Part shown: positions 13,087-22,363 of the stretch, in pieces | Layout: every line of letters begins with the position of its first letter | Position numbering within the stretch: the stretch's first letter is position 1 | IMG/VR virus record: IMGVR_UViG_3300024308_000064 | Location: 1 to 22,363 of that record | Strand: one strand, 5' to 3' | DNA from: a virus | Length of the DNA: 22,363 bases | Made by a program: the position numbers and the translations under genes | The notes under the pieces: model-generated | Told to the model about the DNA's origin: nothing | What the model saw: only the letters and a program-made list of their open reading frames with translations | The model's database searches: none

Positions 13087-13422
13087 TCACACCCGCTCTC
13101 CAGTCTGCGCAGCTCGCCGGCGATCTGGCCCCGCATACGCCACCGACTCAGGCCGCAACACCCCGGCTAGGTTGCCGGCCGTGCGCAATACAGAAACTGC
13201 GAACACCGCCAGCAGCACCACCAGGGGCCAGGCAGCCTCGGGCAACACCAGGTCACCCTTGAGGATGTGGATGATCGTCACCCCGGCGCTGAACATCACC
13301 GCCACCGCCAGGCACGAGATACCACGGCGGAAGCGAGCGCCACCGCGCTGGAAGGTGAACAGGCGGACGAACACCACCACGCACAACCAGAACGTCGCCT
13401 GCGTCAGCAGATAGCTCAGCAT
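13087..13422 (-). CDS. Holin-like membrane protein, three predicted membrane segments
   Basis: An 111-residue protein with three hydrophobic stretches: LSYLLTQATFWLCVVVFVRL, ISCLAVAVMFSAGVTIIHIL and AAWPLVVLLAVFAVSVLRTA. The C-terminus is basic (GPDRRRAAQTGERV). Size, topology and position beside a second holin-like gene suit a class I or 3TM phage holin. ATG 13422 shares one base with the upstream stop (TGATG); a GTG one codon earlier is an alternative. The gene ends about 20 bases before the Z-like start. No peptidoglycan-cutting enzyme lies next to it. Confidence 0.75.
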   Translation of the reverse strand: MLSYLLTQATFWLCVVVFVRLFTFQRGGARFRRGISCLAVAVMFSAGVTIIHILKGDLVLPEAAWPLVVLLAVFAVSVLRTAGNLAGVLRPESVAYAGPDRRRAAQTGERV

Positions 13423-13790
13423 CACCGCTCCCCTTGGCGCTCCAGCGAAGCCGGGTCACCAAATTTCTTGATCAGTCCGAGGGAAATCGTGACCACCAGC
13501 AGCGAGGCGGCGAAGCCAGCCGGAGCCGGATAGGCGAAGGGATGCATACCCCACACCTCGAACTCCACGATGGCCGGGGCGAACAGATACCCCATCACGA
13601 ACGACACCATGAAGAACAGCACCCGCAGGGCCAGGCCCAGTTCGCGGGTGGTGGTGAAGTAGATCAGTGCACCCAGCAGCGCCCCGGTCAGGGCCTCGCC
13701 GTTGATGCCCGCGATAAAACCAGCCAGGCCCAGGCCAGCAGCGCCGGCAACGACCATGGCTCCAGCACCAGTGGAAACCGGCTCGCCCAT
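13422..13790 (-). CDS. Putative holin (first gene of the late operon)
   Basis: A 122-residue protein with hydrophobic segments AMVVAGAAGLGLAGFIAGIN, ALTGALLGALIYFTTT, LRVLFFMVSFVMGYLFAPAI and FAASLLVVTISLGLI. The start MGEPVSTGAGAM is typical of a putative holin family often seen in Pseudomonas phages. ATG 13790 follows GGGAGGT; the longer open frame back to 13892 would run through the terminator at 13825-13848 and is unlikely. As first gene after that terminator, it marks the start of the late operon. It might be the holin with the next gene as antiholin, or the reverse. Confidence 0.75.
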   Translation of the reverse strand: MGEPVSTGAGAMVVAGAAGLGLAGFIAGINGEALTGALLGALIYFTTTRELGLALRVLFFMVSFVMGYLFAPAIVEFEVWGMHPFAYPAPAGFAASLLVVTISLGLIKKFGDPASLERQGER

Positions 13791-13824
13791 CACTACCTCC
13801 CTTGCGGCCATGGGCCAGAAAAAG

Positions 13825-13848
13825 AAAACCCCGCCGGAGCGGGGTTTT
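13825..13848 (-). terminator. Strong terminator between early and late regions
   Basis: Perfect 10-pair stem AAAACCCCGC/GCGGGGTTTT with loop CGGA on the plus strand, followed on the minus strand by CTTTTTC. It should stop minus-strand early transcripts that leave the Q-like gene. Its position just before the lysis genes matches lambda tR', which Q protein overrides. Confidence 0.87.
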
Positions 13849-13883
13849 GCAGGTGCCCAGGCGGGGTGGCCTGGGGCTTTTCG

Positions 13884-13897
13884 GCACAGCACTGTGC
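13884..13897. repeat. Perfect 14-base dyad in the Q-holin gap
   Basis: GCACAG-CA-CTGTGC lies 36 bases upstream (in transcription sense) of the early-late terminator. It could be a protein-binding site for late control or a pause hairpin. No clear -35/-10 pair was identified around it. Confidence 0.4.
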
Positions 13898-13974
13898 GCT
13901 CGGTTGCTCGGTAGGCGGACCTATCGAATCGTGGCGCCTTTTTACCCCTCGACTGACAAACCGAAAACCCCCTA

Positions 13975-14574
13975 TTAACGGTTGTTCCTGACGGGGGCTT
14001 GCCGGGGCGCTACGGCGCCGACCGGCGCCGAGTCGCCCGACGAGCGGTCGTTACGGCCGCCCCGATAAAGTTCTGCACCACGCCCTGCATGAGCTAATGC
14101 CGCCTGCTGAGTCGAGGCCTTCCGCATCCGATCGCCTGCCCGCTTCGACTCCCGCACCATGGTCTGCGTCGCCGAGCGCCGCGCGAGCAGTTCAGCCTTC
14201 ACCAACTCATGCAGCCGGTGCACCAGGCGGAAGTAAGCCTGCTGCCCTGCGCCACCGTGGCCCAGCTGCAGATCCCGCACCTGCTCATCCACCGACAGCG
14301 CCGGCTCGTAGCCATACCGCCTCCAGGCCAGCGCACCCAGCAACGCCCCGCCCTCCTGCCGCTCGACAGCAGCCAGCGCGGCATCCACCTCCTCGGTCAG
14401 AAAGTCCGCACCGGCACCCGCCAGCAACATCCGCGATCCACCCGAGCCAGTGCGCGGCGGGCAACCCTTCCACTCGACCAGCGTCCCGGCCGGGCTGGCC
14501 AAGCCGCCGCCTGGGCAACCTTCGCGCAGCGTGCGCCCCCAGTGCTTCAGCACATCTTCAATCGCCTCAATCAT
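13975..14574 (-). CDS. Putative late-gene regulator in the lambda Q position
   Basis: A 199-residue protein starting MIEAIEDVLKHWGRTLREG at ATG 14574, with GGGGGAG upstream. The first hundred residues include LASPAGTLVEWKGCPPRTG; the middle (VDAALAAVERQEGGALLGAL) and the segment GQQAYFRLVHRLHELVKAEL are helical and could be a sigma-4-like or HTH region, as in many Q-type antiterminators and late regulators. The last 45 residues are basic and Gly/Arg-rich. It is the last early gene, followed by a terminator and then the holins, exactly as Q is followed by tR' and lysis genes. An upstream extension to 14640 would enter the nine-base repeat region and was not used. Position is the strongest argument. 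Confidence 0.55.
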   Translation of the reverse strand: MIEAIEDVLKHWGRTLREGCPGGGLASPAGTLVEWKGCPPRTGSGGSRMLLAGAGADFLTEEVDAALAAVERQEGGALLGALAWRRYGYEPALSVDEQVRDLQLGHGGAGQQAYFRLVHRLHELVKAELLARRSATQTMVRESKRAGDRMRKASTQQAALAHAGRGAELYRGGRNDRSSGDSAPVGAVAPRQAPVRNNR

Positions 14575-14601
14575 GGCCCGTCTCCCCCTCGCCAGAACCA
14601 A

Positions 14602-14903
14602 CCCAACACAAAAACGCCCAACCCAACACACACCCAACACACCACAAACCCAGCAAAACCAAGGCTTTCAAAGCATCTGTGTTGGGTGTGTTGGGTTTGT
14701 TGGGGTTTTCAGTCCTCGCGTGGGGAAATAAAGCGCCGCCGTCTTGGAGTGTTTCAGCCGCTGAAAATGAATGCGCGCACGCCTGCGCGCGTGGGCAAAC
14801 CCAACACACCCCACACAGCCAGCCAGAAACCGCGCCGCACAAGGCTTGCGCCTGTGTAGGGTTGCCAGAACAGACCCGACACAAACCCAACACACCCAAC
14901 ACA
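14602..14903. repeat. CCCAACACA iterons, candidate replication origin
   Basis: The 342-base gap (14575-14916) between the Q-like and primase genes has exact copies of CCCAACACA at 14602, 14622, 14633, 14800, 14886 and 14895, and inverted TGTGTTGGG at 14678 and 14687. Two pairs are in direct tandem, 9 bases apart. Near-copies lie at 14617, 14696, 14809, 14853 (inverted) and 14875. Between the clusters are the dyads TTTCAG-CCG-CTGAAA (14752-14766) and GCGCG/CGCGC near 14774-14790. Iterons beside a phage primase-helicase gene suggest an origin, by analogy with P4. Confidence 0.65.
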
Positions 14904-18282: not shown

Positions 18283-18489
18283 TCATCCACGCCGCACCTC
18301 CCGCAGCCCCTGGCATTCCACGCAGAAGCGGCAACCCGGCACTGCAAGGCGCCGGGCTTCGGGGATATCGCTACGGCAGGACTCGCACTCCAGGGCGCTC
18401 TCGCCCTGGTACTGCACGCGGTTGGCGATGGCATGCTGCAGGCGTTCGTCCTGCAGGCGCTGCGCCTGCTCGAATTGGGCCTCATCCAT
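18283..18489 (-). CDS. TraR/DksA-type zinc-finger protein
   Basis: A 68-residue protein with an N-terminal helix (MDEAQFEQAQRLQDERLQHA) and a four-Cys zinc finger: CESC, then CRFCVECQ. This is the short TraR-like layout found in many phages and conjugative elements; TraR binds the RNA polymerase secondary channel and shifts promoter choice without ppGpp. The start overlaps the CII-like stop by 8 bases, so the two are likely co-translated. The acidic tip (DEAQFE) is near the N-terminus as in TraR. Confidence 0.87.
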   Translation of the reverse strand: MDEAQFEQAQRLQDERLQHAIANRVQYQGESALECESCRSDIPEARRLAVPGCRFCVECQGLREVRRG

Positions 18490-18970
18490 CCTGACGGCCC
18501 TCCATCGCGGCGCGGGCGCCGGCCATGATGCCGAGCACAGCGCGGATCACCTCATTGCCGTGATGCTCGAGCAGTGCCACCTCGTGGGGCTGCCACACGT
18601 TGTCGGCCGCGCCGGTGTGCAGACTGCCCACGAACTGGCCTTCCTTCTGCAGCAGCTCGCCCACCGCCTTGAGTGCATCCTTGGTGGCACGCACAGGCTT
18701 GGGCTTGAACCACACCGCCCCGGCCGGGCGCATCAGCGCATCGAGCAGGCGCGGGTCCTGGCTTGCGCCGATGATCTCCTCCAGCTCGTCTGGCGTTGGC
18801 CAGCGCGCCTCGAAGTCGAACTTCAGCTTCTTCTGCAGGGCATCCAGATCCATGCCCAGGTCGAGTGCGAGGCCAGTGACCCCGCCGCGATAGTCGCGCC
18901 CAGCGCGGTAAAGCGCCTGGCGGATGGAGAGAACCGGACCAGCGTCCGGCAAAAGGTCAAGTCGGCTCAT
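18482..18970 (-). CDS. CII-family phage regulatory protein
   Basis: A 162-residue protein fitting the phage regulatory protein CII (CP76) family. The N-terminal part (LSIRQALYRAGRDYRGGVTG, then LALDLGMDLDALQKKLK) is a helix-turn-helix in which LAxxLGM leads to a pairing helix. The middle (WPTPDELEEIIGASQDPRLL) and the C-terminal helices (ALKAVGELLQKEGQFVG) are typical of the family. It lies downstream of cro, as lambda cII does, and should influence the lysis-lysogeny choice. ATG 18970 has GGGG about 5 bases upstream, just next to a strong hairpin (18982-19003) that may control its translation. Confidence 0.85.
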   Translation of the reverse strand: MSRLDLLPDAGPVLSIRQALYRAGRDYRGGVTGLALDLGMDLDALQKKLKFDFEARWPTPDELEEIIGASQDPRLLDALMRPAGAVWFKPKPVRATKDALKAVGELLQKEGQFVGSLHTGAADNVWQPHEVALLEHHGNEVIRAVLGIMAGARAAMEGRQDG

Positions 18971-18981
18971 GCTTACCCCAA

Positions 18982-19003
18982 GCCGGCCCCAGACGGGGCC
19001 GGC
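18982..19003 (-). promoter_or_regulatory. Strong hairpin beside the CII-like ribosome site
   Basis: GCCGGCCCC/GGGGCCGGC, a perfect 9-pair stem with a 4-base loop (AGAC on plus). In the minus-strand transcript it ends 11 bases before the CII-like ATG, with GGGG in between. There is no T-run, so translational control or a Rho-type pause is likelier than intrinsic termination. Confidence 0.6.
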
Positions 19004-19062
19004 AGCGTGCTGTGCTTGATCCGGCCGGCGCGAGTCAGAGAACGCACCGCCCGGGGCCTACA

Positions 19063-19300
19063 CCGCGCAAGGGGTCAGAGTCCCTGCGCGGGTTACTACC
19101 GAAAGCCGCCGTTTAACGACATAGCCAGCCAGCAGGGCTTCCCCTACTATTTCGGCTACGGCGACCTGATGCTCCCCACATGTGCTGTGTCCGCATCAGG
19201 CGTCGTGCGCCTGCCGAGGGGTCAGAGCCTCGTCAGGCAAGGCGCGGGAGGTCAGAGTCCCGCGCCACCCGCCGCCCTGGAGGTCAGAGTCCAGAGCGGC
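19063..19300. repeat. Hairpin array with a shared GGTCAGAG loop
   Basis: The 360-base cro-cII interval has no convincing gene. It holds four hairpins whose stems differ but whose loop is GGTCAGAG (CTCTGACC on the minus strand). 19063-19091: 10 pairs with one bulge around the core at 19073-19080. 19209-19238: 5 pairs, one mismatch, 5 pairs. 19241-19266: perfect 9 pairs. 19271-19300: 5 pairs, one mismatch, 5 pairs. The last three are packed at 30-32 base spacing. A degenerate copy (AGTCAGAG, weak stem) is at 19033. A separate 8-pair stem CCTGATGC/GCATCAGG brackets 19165-19200. Different stems with a fixed loop point to a structured RNA or DNA recognition element. Confidence 0.78.
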
Positions 19301-19305
19301 ACCCC

Positions 19306-19327
19306 GCTGGCCCCCTCGGGGGCCAGC
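19306..19327 (-). terminator. Hairpin right after the cro-like gene
   Basis: GCTGGCCCC/GGGGCCAGC around CTCG, a 9-pair stem starting 3 bases beyond the cro-like stop codon. No T-run follows on the minus strand, so it may be a pause site or a tR1-like Rho-dependent site rather than an intrinsic terminator. It continues the hairpin row at 19209-19300 but lacks the shared loop. Confidence 0.45.
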
Positions 19328-19330
19328 ACC

Positions 19331-19534
19331 TTAGGCCGCCCTGCGGCGACTACCAACCGGGCGAATTTCGTATGCCTGCCAATTGCCATTCGGCAGCTGG
19401 CGCACCCGAATATCTCGACCGGATTTGATCATCTGAGATATCGCGCTCTGCGTTACCCCGATCAGCAAAGCCAACTCAGGCTGCGTCTTACCTTCAGCAA
19501 ATGCGGCCAGGGTTTGGCCAGTAAACTCATCCAT
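19331..19534 (-). CDS. Cro-like repressor
   Basis: A 67-residue protein with a helix-turn-helix (GKTQPELALLIGVTQSAISQ) and a basic C-terminus (RPVGSRRRAA). Size and position, divergent from the CI-like gene and first in the early operon, are those of Cro, which shuts off repressor synthesis and favours lytic growth. Two in-frame ATGs are close together; ATG 19534 is preferred because GAGGG is 7 bases upstream, while ATG 19540 is only one base from it. Confidence 0.87.
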   Translation of the reverse strand: MDEFTGQTLAAFAEGKTQPELALLIGVTQSAISQMIKSGRDIRVRQLPNGNWQAYEIRPVGSRRRAA

Positions 19535-19553
19535 CACCATGCCCTCGATGGGT

Positions 19554-19577
19554 AGTGCCGGAGATATTAGTGGCACT
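19554..19577. promoter_or_regulatory. Operator dyad over the early promoter
   Basis: AGTGCC and GGCACT flank 12 central bases and cover the -10 box of the cro promoter. A bound CI or Cro dimer here would block early transcription. Confidence 0.55.
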
Positions 19578-19639: not shown

Positions 19640-19647
19640 TTGTGGAA

Positions 19648-20454
19648 ATGGACATAACCCCTGAAATCCAGCAGGCCGAAGCGGCTGCACTCAAAGCCAT
19701 CATGAAGGCACGCAAGCTGACTGATGCGACCCTGACACAGGATCGCATTGCAGACCTGTGCGGCTGGTCCGGTCAGAGCGTCGTCAGCCAGTACGCCAAC
19801 GGCAAAATCCCGCTCAACATCCCCGCCCTGATAAAGTTCGCCCAGGTGCTCAATTTCGCACCAGTCGAAGTCAGCCCTCGTTTGGCCAGGCTCTTTGGCG
19901 ATACGAGCTACCCGCCCTCCCAAATTGCTCACGAACTTACTCAGCCAGCCCCCGAAGCTCCGGCCGAACCCCAGGGGCATGTGGACATTTACCCGATAGA
20001 GGTGTGGGACGATCAAACCCCTCTAGGCCCTGAAGAGGTAGAGCTCCCTTTCTATAAGGAAGTCGAGCTGTCTGCTGGTAAAGGATCGGAAGTAATGCTG
20101 GAAACAAGCGGCAGGAAGCTGCGATTCGGACGCCGCAGCCTTCAACGCAAGGGTGTTGAACCTGAGTCCGCCGCATGCGCCGCCGTCACTGGTAATAGCA
20201 TGGAGCCGGTCCTTCCGGACGGGTCCACAGTAGGTATCGACACCTCCCGCAAGCAGGTGCAGGACGGCAAGATGTACGCCATCGACCACGCTGGCCAGCT
20301 ACGTGTAAAACTACTCTATCGGTTGCCTGGCGGAGGCCTGAGAGTCCGCAGCTACAACGAAGCGGAGCACCCCGACGAGCGCTATGAAGGGGACTACGTT
20401 GAAAACCACATCCGCATCATCGGCAAGGTTTTCTGGTACTCAGTGCTTCTGTGA
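19648..20454 (+). CDS. CI-like repressor with S24 (LexA-type) self-cleavage domain
   Basis: A 268-residue prophage repressor. The N-terminus holds a helix-turn-helix (TQDRIADLCGWSGQSVVSQY, then ANGKIPLN). The C-terminus is an S24 peptidase: nucleophile Ser184 in VTGNSMEPVLPDGS, general-base Lys221 in LRVKLLYR, and a candidate Ala-Gly cleavage bond in VELSAGKGSE. It should be cleaved when RecA is activated, so the prophage should be DNA-damage inducible. No Shine-Dalgarno is visible; the -10 box is so close that the message may begin at ATG 19648. A GTG at 19642 is an alternative start. It diverges from cro and is followed by a terminator. Confidence 0.94.
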   Translation: MDITPEIQQAEAAALKAIMKARKLTDATLTQDRIADLCGWSGQSVVSQYANGKIPLNIPALIKFAQVLNFAPVEVSPRLARLFGDTSYPPSQIAHELTQPAPEAPAEPQGHVDIYPIEVWDDQTPLGPEEVELPFYKEVELSAGKGSEVMLETSGRKLRFGRRSLQRKGVEPESAACAAVTGNSMEPVLPDGSTVGIDTSRKQVQDGKMYAIDHAGQLRVKLLYRLPGGGLRVRSYNEAEHPDERYEGDYVENHIRIIGKVFWYSVLL

Positions 20455-20558: not shown

Positions 20559-20597
20559 TGCTCGCGTACCCACTCTCTGACCTCTGGAGTACGCGAC

Positions 20598-20777
20598 ATG
20601 CAAACGACACAGCACAGCTCTACCTGCCAGGTGCATGCACACCCGGCCCTCCATTACAGCCTCGTCATGCAGGTGCGCCGCCAGGCGCGTGACGCAGGCT
20701 GCCAATACGTCACCCGCAAGCAATGGAGCAGCTCCAAGCCGAGCACCCCCGGCCCGTTCGGAGGTGACGCAGCATGA
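20598..20777 (+). CDS. Small protein of unknown function
   Basis: A 59-residue open frame, first in the plus-strand operon: MQTTQHSSTCQVHAHPALHY to TPGPFGGDAA. It has GGAG 8 bases before the ATG, lies directly downstream of the promoter at 20530-20558, and its stop overlaps the kinase start by 4 bases (ATGA), which argues that it is translated. The sequence is rich in His, Ser, Gln and Arg with two Cys residues, and has no membrane segment or recognisable domain. Confidence 0.7.
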   Translation: MQTTQHSSTCQVHAHPALHYSLVMQVRRQARDAGCQYVTRKQWSSSKPSTPGPFGGDAA

Positions 20778-22234: not shown

Positions 22235-22285
22235 CCACCCCCGGCACCACCGGGCTCTGACACATCAACCGAAGAGACACAGCAC

Positions 22286-22363
22286 ATGAGCAAACGCCCC
22301 TTCATGGACACCCTCCGCGAGATCGAGATGGGTGGCCTGCTGGACGAGCTGACCGACGCGCAG
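22286..22363 (+). CDS. Start of a small phage protein (partial)
   Basis: The last 78 bases open with MSKRPFMDTLREIEMGGLLD and continue to the window edge. ATG 22286 has GAAGAGA about 10 bases upstream and lies 51 bases after the PrtN-family stop, in the same direction. Too little is visible to assign a function. Confidence 0.6.
   Translation, partial: MSKRPFMDTLREIEMGGLLDELTDAQ

Follow-up and report, generated by a model that had tools for sequence, protein, structure and literature searches.

Hairpins with one loop code in the cII leader and at other early gene starts suggest a phage-wide RNA control system in Pseudomonas phages

The leader between cro and cII of a Pseudomonas-type temperate phage carries a row of hairpins with different stems and a common loop. 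The same element recurs in single copies where other genes of this phage start, and related Pseudomonas phages have it in at least 140 loci. Since it is found at several early gene starts, the row between cro and cII is seen as part of a phage-wide RNA control system. Our preferred reading, which we hold with moderate confidence, is a post-transcriptional control with two inputs: a phage-specific ligand of the loop and a small RNA of the phage itself. The DNA analysed (the window) is a 22-kb contig of 22,363 nucleotides.

The array lies in the untranslated leader of the cII mRNA (18971-19330, minus strand), which spans the interval from the stop of a Cro-like gene located 5' of it (19331-19555, minus strand; Cro score just under the Pfam cut-off) to the start of a CII-like activator gene of the CP76 family located 3' of it (18482-18970, minus strand). 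The cI gene is at 19642-20454 on the plus strand. Read along the minus strand, the leader starts with a GC-rich hairpin, GCTGGCCCC-CGAG-GGGGCCAGC (19306-19327), which has no T-run and is thus no clear terminator; a terminator scan of the window gave no terminator-like site between cro and cII. Three hairpins with the loop CTCTGACC follow: A (19271-19300), whose 5+1+5 stem has a G-U pair at the position taken as a mismatch, B (19241-19266), with nine perfect pairs, and C (19209-19238), with five pairs, a mismatch and five pairs. The next hairpin, CCTGATGC...GCATCAGG (19165-19200), contains in its loop a second motif, CACAGCAC (19182-19189), and a domain related to it is present in relatives. 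Hairpin D (19063-19091) displays the core CTCTGAC. Hairpin E (19021-19054), with 11 pairs and the loop ttCTCTGACt, has a counterpart in L001 and L005. The leader ends with a second copy of CACAGCAC (19007-19014) and a hairpin directly 5' of the cII start (18982-19003); in most relatives the latter site reads ACCGTAAA-nGGAGn-TTTACGGT, a hairpin whose loop contains the Shine-Dalgarno sequence. A sequence-only reading had described four stem-loops with one invariant loop core. All four (A to D) are present where it placed them, but E, with an identical seven-base core, makes the array one of five. The core is indeed shared and comprises seven bases, CTCTGAC, while the eighth (C) varies in other elements.

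Motif counts and folding bear out the array. There are six copies of GGTCAGAG in the window against 0.99 expected, and none of 100 shuffles gave six; one copy, at 19771, is within the cI reading frame and does not belong to an element. The 360-nt interval folds better than its shuffles as minus-strand RNA (z = -5.6) and as plus-strand RNA (z = -5.4), and the individual leader hairpins range from z = -3.3 to -5.9. The exact 16-mer GGGAGGTCAGAGTCCC was matched 19 times in viral contigs. About half of the matches came from this phage group and, by our estimate, those beyond it are roughly as many as chance would give.

The loop motif of the family was present in the leader of 140 of 142 CII-gene loci, being absent from L200 and L242. 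An array layout matching that of the window was found in L001, L002 and L005, and variants of it in most of the 142 loci. Most other leaders contain one or two hairpins at the corresponding place; the domain after them, ...CACAGCACATGCATCGGTCGTGGTCATAGAGTAGGG...GGCTACACCGTAAAnGGAGnnTTTACGGTTATG, is strongly conserved and terminates in a hairpin with a Shine-Dalgarno sequence in its loop. Where the loci come from named bacterial genomes, 41 of 42 are Pseudomonas, the remaining one being a gammaproteobacterial metagenome bin.

That the stems differ but remain paired, as had been claimed from the window, was borne out by 31 distinct hairpins, in which all 11 stem pairs undergo two-sided compensatory change. 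Two-sided cells numbered 112, compared with 42 in shuffled and 12-32 in slid alignments, paired cells amounted to 89% (59% shuffled, 36-51% slid), and the covariation score was 0.80 versus 0.27. In a second count, 353 of 462 pairs were Watson-Crick, against 192 +/- 12 when shuffled. Covariance analysis of homologous intervals, suggested earlier as a check, thus found that related phages retain paired stems, and these comparisons indicate that selection on pairing maintains them. Stem mismatches of the G-U and C-A kinds stand at 21 to 12 in one count and 29 to 29 in another; as G-U pairs are so few in excess, the functional strand is not singled out. In the PG1-like leaders L177-L221, the hairpin-loop sequence CACAGCA can pair with TGCTGT just past the stem, possibly forming a pseudoknot that is absent from leaders of the window's type. 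In L008 the leader is present twice (near 2251-2330 and 2893-2980), once before cII and once before a gene starting MTRKAMVKREP.

The elements had been placed between cro and cII. They do lie there, but not only there, as CTCTGAC also precedes plus-strand genes at 20575 and 22255. A single element, TCGCGTACCC-actCTCTGACctctg-GAGTACGCGA (20562-20596, plus strand), is found directly 5' of the ATG of the first early gene after cI. Its core is at 20575 and its stem is retained in relatives; for the inner part of the hairpin alone (20566-20601), folding is not better than in shuffled sequences. The gene (20598-20777, plus strand) encodes a small protein of 59 aa and unknown function, MQTTQH..., and contains CACAGCAC in its first codons (20608-20615). 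Its family, MQTTQH...GPFGGDAA (57-86 aa, phrog_13491/35204), opens the cI-side early operon. CACAGCAC constrains the N-terminus of the protein, and the next Shine-Dalgarno sequence seems to lie within its C-terminus. The other element (22255-22285, plus strand) has no strong stem: CTCTGAC is followed by CACAGCAC right before the ATG at 22286. In complete relatives the core precedes further early genes too, with or without a strong stem, and CACAGCAC appears at start codons or in the leader; the gene-start arrangements seen include CACAGCACATG, ATGCAAACGACACAGCAC and gAGGACACAGCACATG.

The loop is spelled differently in different phages (CUCUGAC, CUCUCAC, CUCUAAC/CUCUAC, CUCUAUU, CACUUACC, CACUCACC and CACCUACC), and nearly all elements within one genome share a single spelling. 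Mixed spellings occur in a few genomes, such as L054 (CUCUAAC and CUCUCAC) and L226 (CUCUGAA and CUCUAC). In a first set, the loop of the leader and that of the first early gene agreed in 52 of 53 distinct pairs, and the lone exception also has a concordant motif; in a larger set they agreed in 93 of 93 distinct loci. At least 12 loop changes were found on the CII tree, all of them joint. A sister-pair test on well-supported branches gave one or two independent pairs per class, all in agreement and too few for significance. Phages Lodos (CUCUCAC) and LPPA56 (CUCUACAC, CUCUAC type) are 88-98% identical along the element-bearing regions, and despite this near identity every element has switched together. 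Hairpins with different stems can hardly be made uniform by copying, so that a common ligand is the simplest cause of the coherent loop.

No protein was found to track the loop class among the phage proteins compared across class switches. The primase (99% identical), phrog_4300, a PrtN-like protein and the late genes are almost identical across a switch, cI can be 90% identical, and Cro is either nearly identical or does not follow the class. A DksA-like protein was also discarded; this DksA/TraR-like zinc-finger gene, between cII and primase, appears frameshifted in L133 (Lodos) and is intact in its near-twin LPPA56. The search for class-specific protein families returned only apparent shadow frames. 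The leading candidate for the ligand, by position only, is the MQTTQH protein, for which the structural model was poor (pLDDT 65) and no arginine-rich motif was seen. A search for perfect 7-base loop complements, a criterion under which 6-base or wobble complements fall outside, gave no convincing additional one in a separate phage RNA of several genomes, for example G005, Lodos and G023.

The second motif is complementary to a conserved, predicted RNA. Where the late operon begins, between phrog_4300 (13975-14640) and a holin gene (13422-13892), we predict from the sequence alone a phage small RNA (about 13825-13930, minus strand), with a seed hairpin displaying GUGCUGUG and a terminator at 13825-13848. 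The seed is the complement of plus-strand positions 13885-13892, and is complementary to CACAGCAC. The predicted promoter region (13937-13982, minus strand), proposed from conservation only, contains the inverted repeat ACCGTTAAT...TTTTCGGT and GGTANAAAG. Most relatives begin this region with ACCGNNAA...TTTTCGGT as an inverted repeat, followed by GGTANAAAG, a variable hairpin, the GUGCUGUG hairpin, another hairpin and a strong terminator. The RNA is represented by 51 distinct sequences, and its fold has a z of -3.4 in the window. GCUGUG is invariant in 27 aligned sequences, partly by construction, because the first set came from searching its complement. The seed hairpin has been rebuilt on new stems in PG1, L273, L279 and G031. 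That of PG1 has an entirely different stem (GCCUAAC-UUGCUGU-GUCAGGC) and still displays UUGCUGUGUC, the complement of PG1's GACACAGCA; in G031 the match of seed and leader extends to 12 bases.

In most phages the seed is complementary to 8-12 nt of the cII leader and to 7-10 nt of the MQTTQH start, with the exceptions of L290, L292, L303 and L304. On average the RNA is complementary to its own leader over 8.9 nt, slightly more than the 8.5 +/- 0.15 with swapped partners (12 of 2000 shuffles as high), counts that are inflated by the relatedness of the phages. By predicted duplex energy the cII leader alone ranks first, whereas the other starts do not. L303 and L304 retain the seed although their cII leader has CACAACAC. 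The leaders of L290, L303, L304 and L322 contain CACAACAC or CAGAGCAC, and the seed is also altered in L290 and L322, and unaltered in L303 and L304. Prophages L324 and L326 contain a phrog_4300-like gene and a similar late-operon RNA, without the elements and without the seed. Of 149 Pseudomonas genomes searched with a covariance model of the small RNA, 20 gave strong matches (E below 1e-18), about one in eight, the weaker matches being divergent or unreliable. Rfam gave only sub-threshold matches in the small-RNA region, mainly over the terminator. As a reader of the variable loop letter this RNA was rejected, since Lodos and LPPA56 have different loops and nearly identical versions of it. 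The PG1 (L136) small RNA, near 29785-29830, contains GGTCAGAG, while the loop class of that phage is CACTTACC; this is probably chance.

Comparison of sequences shows the hairpins, their covariation, the coherent loop and the conserved RNA with its terminator and its complementarity; expression, the nature of the ligand, translation as the step acted upon and the sign of the effect are deduced. We propose that the array is a multi-copy version of an RNA element that acts in cis and is present in the cII leader, at the first gene of the cI-side early operon and at further genes of that operon. One part of the element would be a hairpin, sometimes a bare stretch, displaying CUCUNAC; the other, downstream, would be CACAGCAC, located either in the leader or no more than a few bases from the start codon. 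CUCUNAC would be recognised in trans by a ligand specific to the phage, most probably a small RNA-binding protein that the phage encodes. CACAGCAC would be paired by GUGCUGUG of the short terminated RNA predicted at the head of the late operon. Both inputs would act at translation initiation, on ribosome binding, and the early genes, cII included, could therefore be controlled together. They would probably be shut off once late-operon RNA accumulates, a direction that we infer. Among the early mRNAs that share one loop code, the cII leader with its several hairpins would be under the heaviest regulation.

In its origin the predicted late-operon RNA resembles known RNAs. Lambda 6S RNA and StxS of Shiga-toxin phages originate from late-operon leaders, and they are short terminated transcripts made ahead of the lysis genes, where the late operon begins. 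The RNA described here differs in that its predicted targets are several early genes of its own phage sharing one 8-base site, and its sequence is unrelated and matches no Rfam family. StxS has been reported to pair in trans with stx1AB and rpoS mRNA (PMC12197685).

As an alternative, which we judge unlikely but still a serious competitor of a protein ligand, the loops would be read by an antisense RNA from the other strand of the cII leader, whose GUNAGAG loops would kiss the CUCUNAC loops in trans. Its source could be, for instance, a CII-activated promoter towards cI, like pE of phage 186, or an OOP-like one. The leader itself would then set the loop code, so no separate gene would need to change. 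This accounts for the coherence of the loops when no phage protein tracks the class, and for G005, Lodos and G023 having no convincing separate perfect loop complement. The YUNR U-turn form is known from antisense loops, and the commonest loops here read C-U-N-A, which has that form; CUCUACAC, CUCUAUU and CACCUACC do not match it, and no sigma-70-like promoter was seen in the antisense direction in 13 leaders. OOP of lambda and sar of P22 resemble our system as phage RNAs controlling cII or another lysis-lysogeny gene. OOP RNA, antisense to cII, is a precedent for RNA control of this gene (PMC12197685), but its target is the gene itself, whereas here the conserved sites belong to the cII leader and to the starts of other genes. 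It is tempting to extend the antisense idea to a self-coding specificity, in which the other strand of the cII leader encodes loops complementary to all elements of its own phage; we give this less credence than any reading discussed here except DNA-level repeats. If it were true, the RNA code of each lineage would switch as a whole, as an RNA counterpart of repressor-operator immunity types, and would work alongside the late-operon small RNA.

Less probable than the antisense RNA, in our view, is a nut-like antitermination, in which the hairpins would be boxB or boxA-like sites, specific to each phage, that equip RNA polymerase with an N-like protein or with Nus factors. The layout over two operons resembles that of nutL and nutR: hairpins start both early operons, one beside cI and the other after cro. 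The loop specificity is phage-private, varies between phages as lambdoid boxB does and is common to the sites of one phage, and a small phage ligand is expected in both cases. CUCUNAC also resembles the boxA of lambda nutR, CUCUUAC. However, in none of the CACAGCA-linked elements counted is the variable base U, the boxA letter. Unlike in lambdoid nut sites, CUCUNAC is inside the hairpin loop, and neither a separate boxA nor the boxA-boxB order was seen in the leaders. Here there are five copies in one leader and many at single ribosome-binding sites, with CACAGCAC at the ATG; neither a terminator after the hairpins nor an N-like gene was found. As copies stand at individual ribosome-binding sites, translation control fits better than antitermination. 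Of the earlier suggestion that the array binds an antiterminator or another RNA-binding protein, we retain an array acting at the RNA level, probably with a trans-acting factor; antitermination is one possibility.

DNA-level repeats, either REP-like or cruciforms serving a protein of recombination or replication, are highly improbable: the inverted repeats have a GTCAGAG core and some primases use hairpin start sites, but the primase is 99% identical across a loop switch, the elements follow gene direction and sit at gene starts, and the design occurs in each of seven Pseudomonas genomes only in the prophage and in at most one other match. A REP-like origin had been named as an alternative; some REP elements have a similar GTCAGA core, and the REPs of RAYT transposases are also short inverted repeats. 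Whole-genome counts (0-1 copies outside the prophage in seven genomes of 3.7-6.3 Mb) speak against it; the array is not dispersed through host chromosomes as REPs are, being tied to prophage gene starts.

The two-input control of early genes that we favour is apparently undescribed. For the leader, Rfam 15 gave only sub-threshold chance matches in the window and none in seven related loci, and no report of the element was found in the open-access full-text literature, a search that did not extend to subscription papers. To our knowledge, little is known about how temperate phages other than those of the lambda group control their genes post-transcriptionally. Here, the early genes of a widespread group of Pseudomonas phages are marked by one conserved loop code of seven bases, which each phage has to itself and which switches at all sites together. 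The system is well suited to studies of how such a code and the ligand that reads it can change in step, and of how, through cII, RNA takes part in deciding between lysis and lysogeny. A further inverted repeat, of the form ACCGNAAA...TTTNCGGT, is found in the window at 13960-13982 (minus strand), 5' of the predicted small-RNA promoter, and in most relatives also where cII starts. Both sites may thereby share an operator, for which CII is a candidate. In PG1 both repeats of this type become GCGTTA-type.
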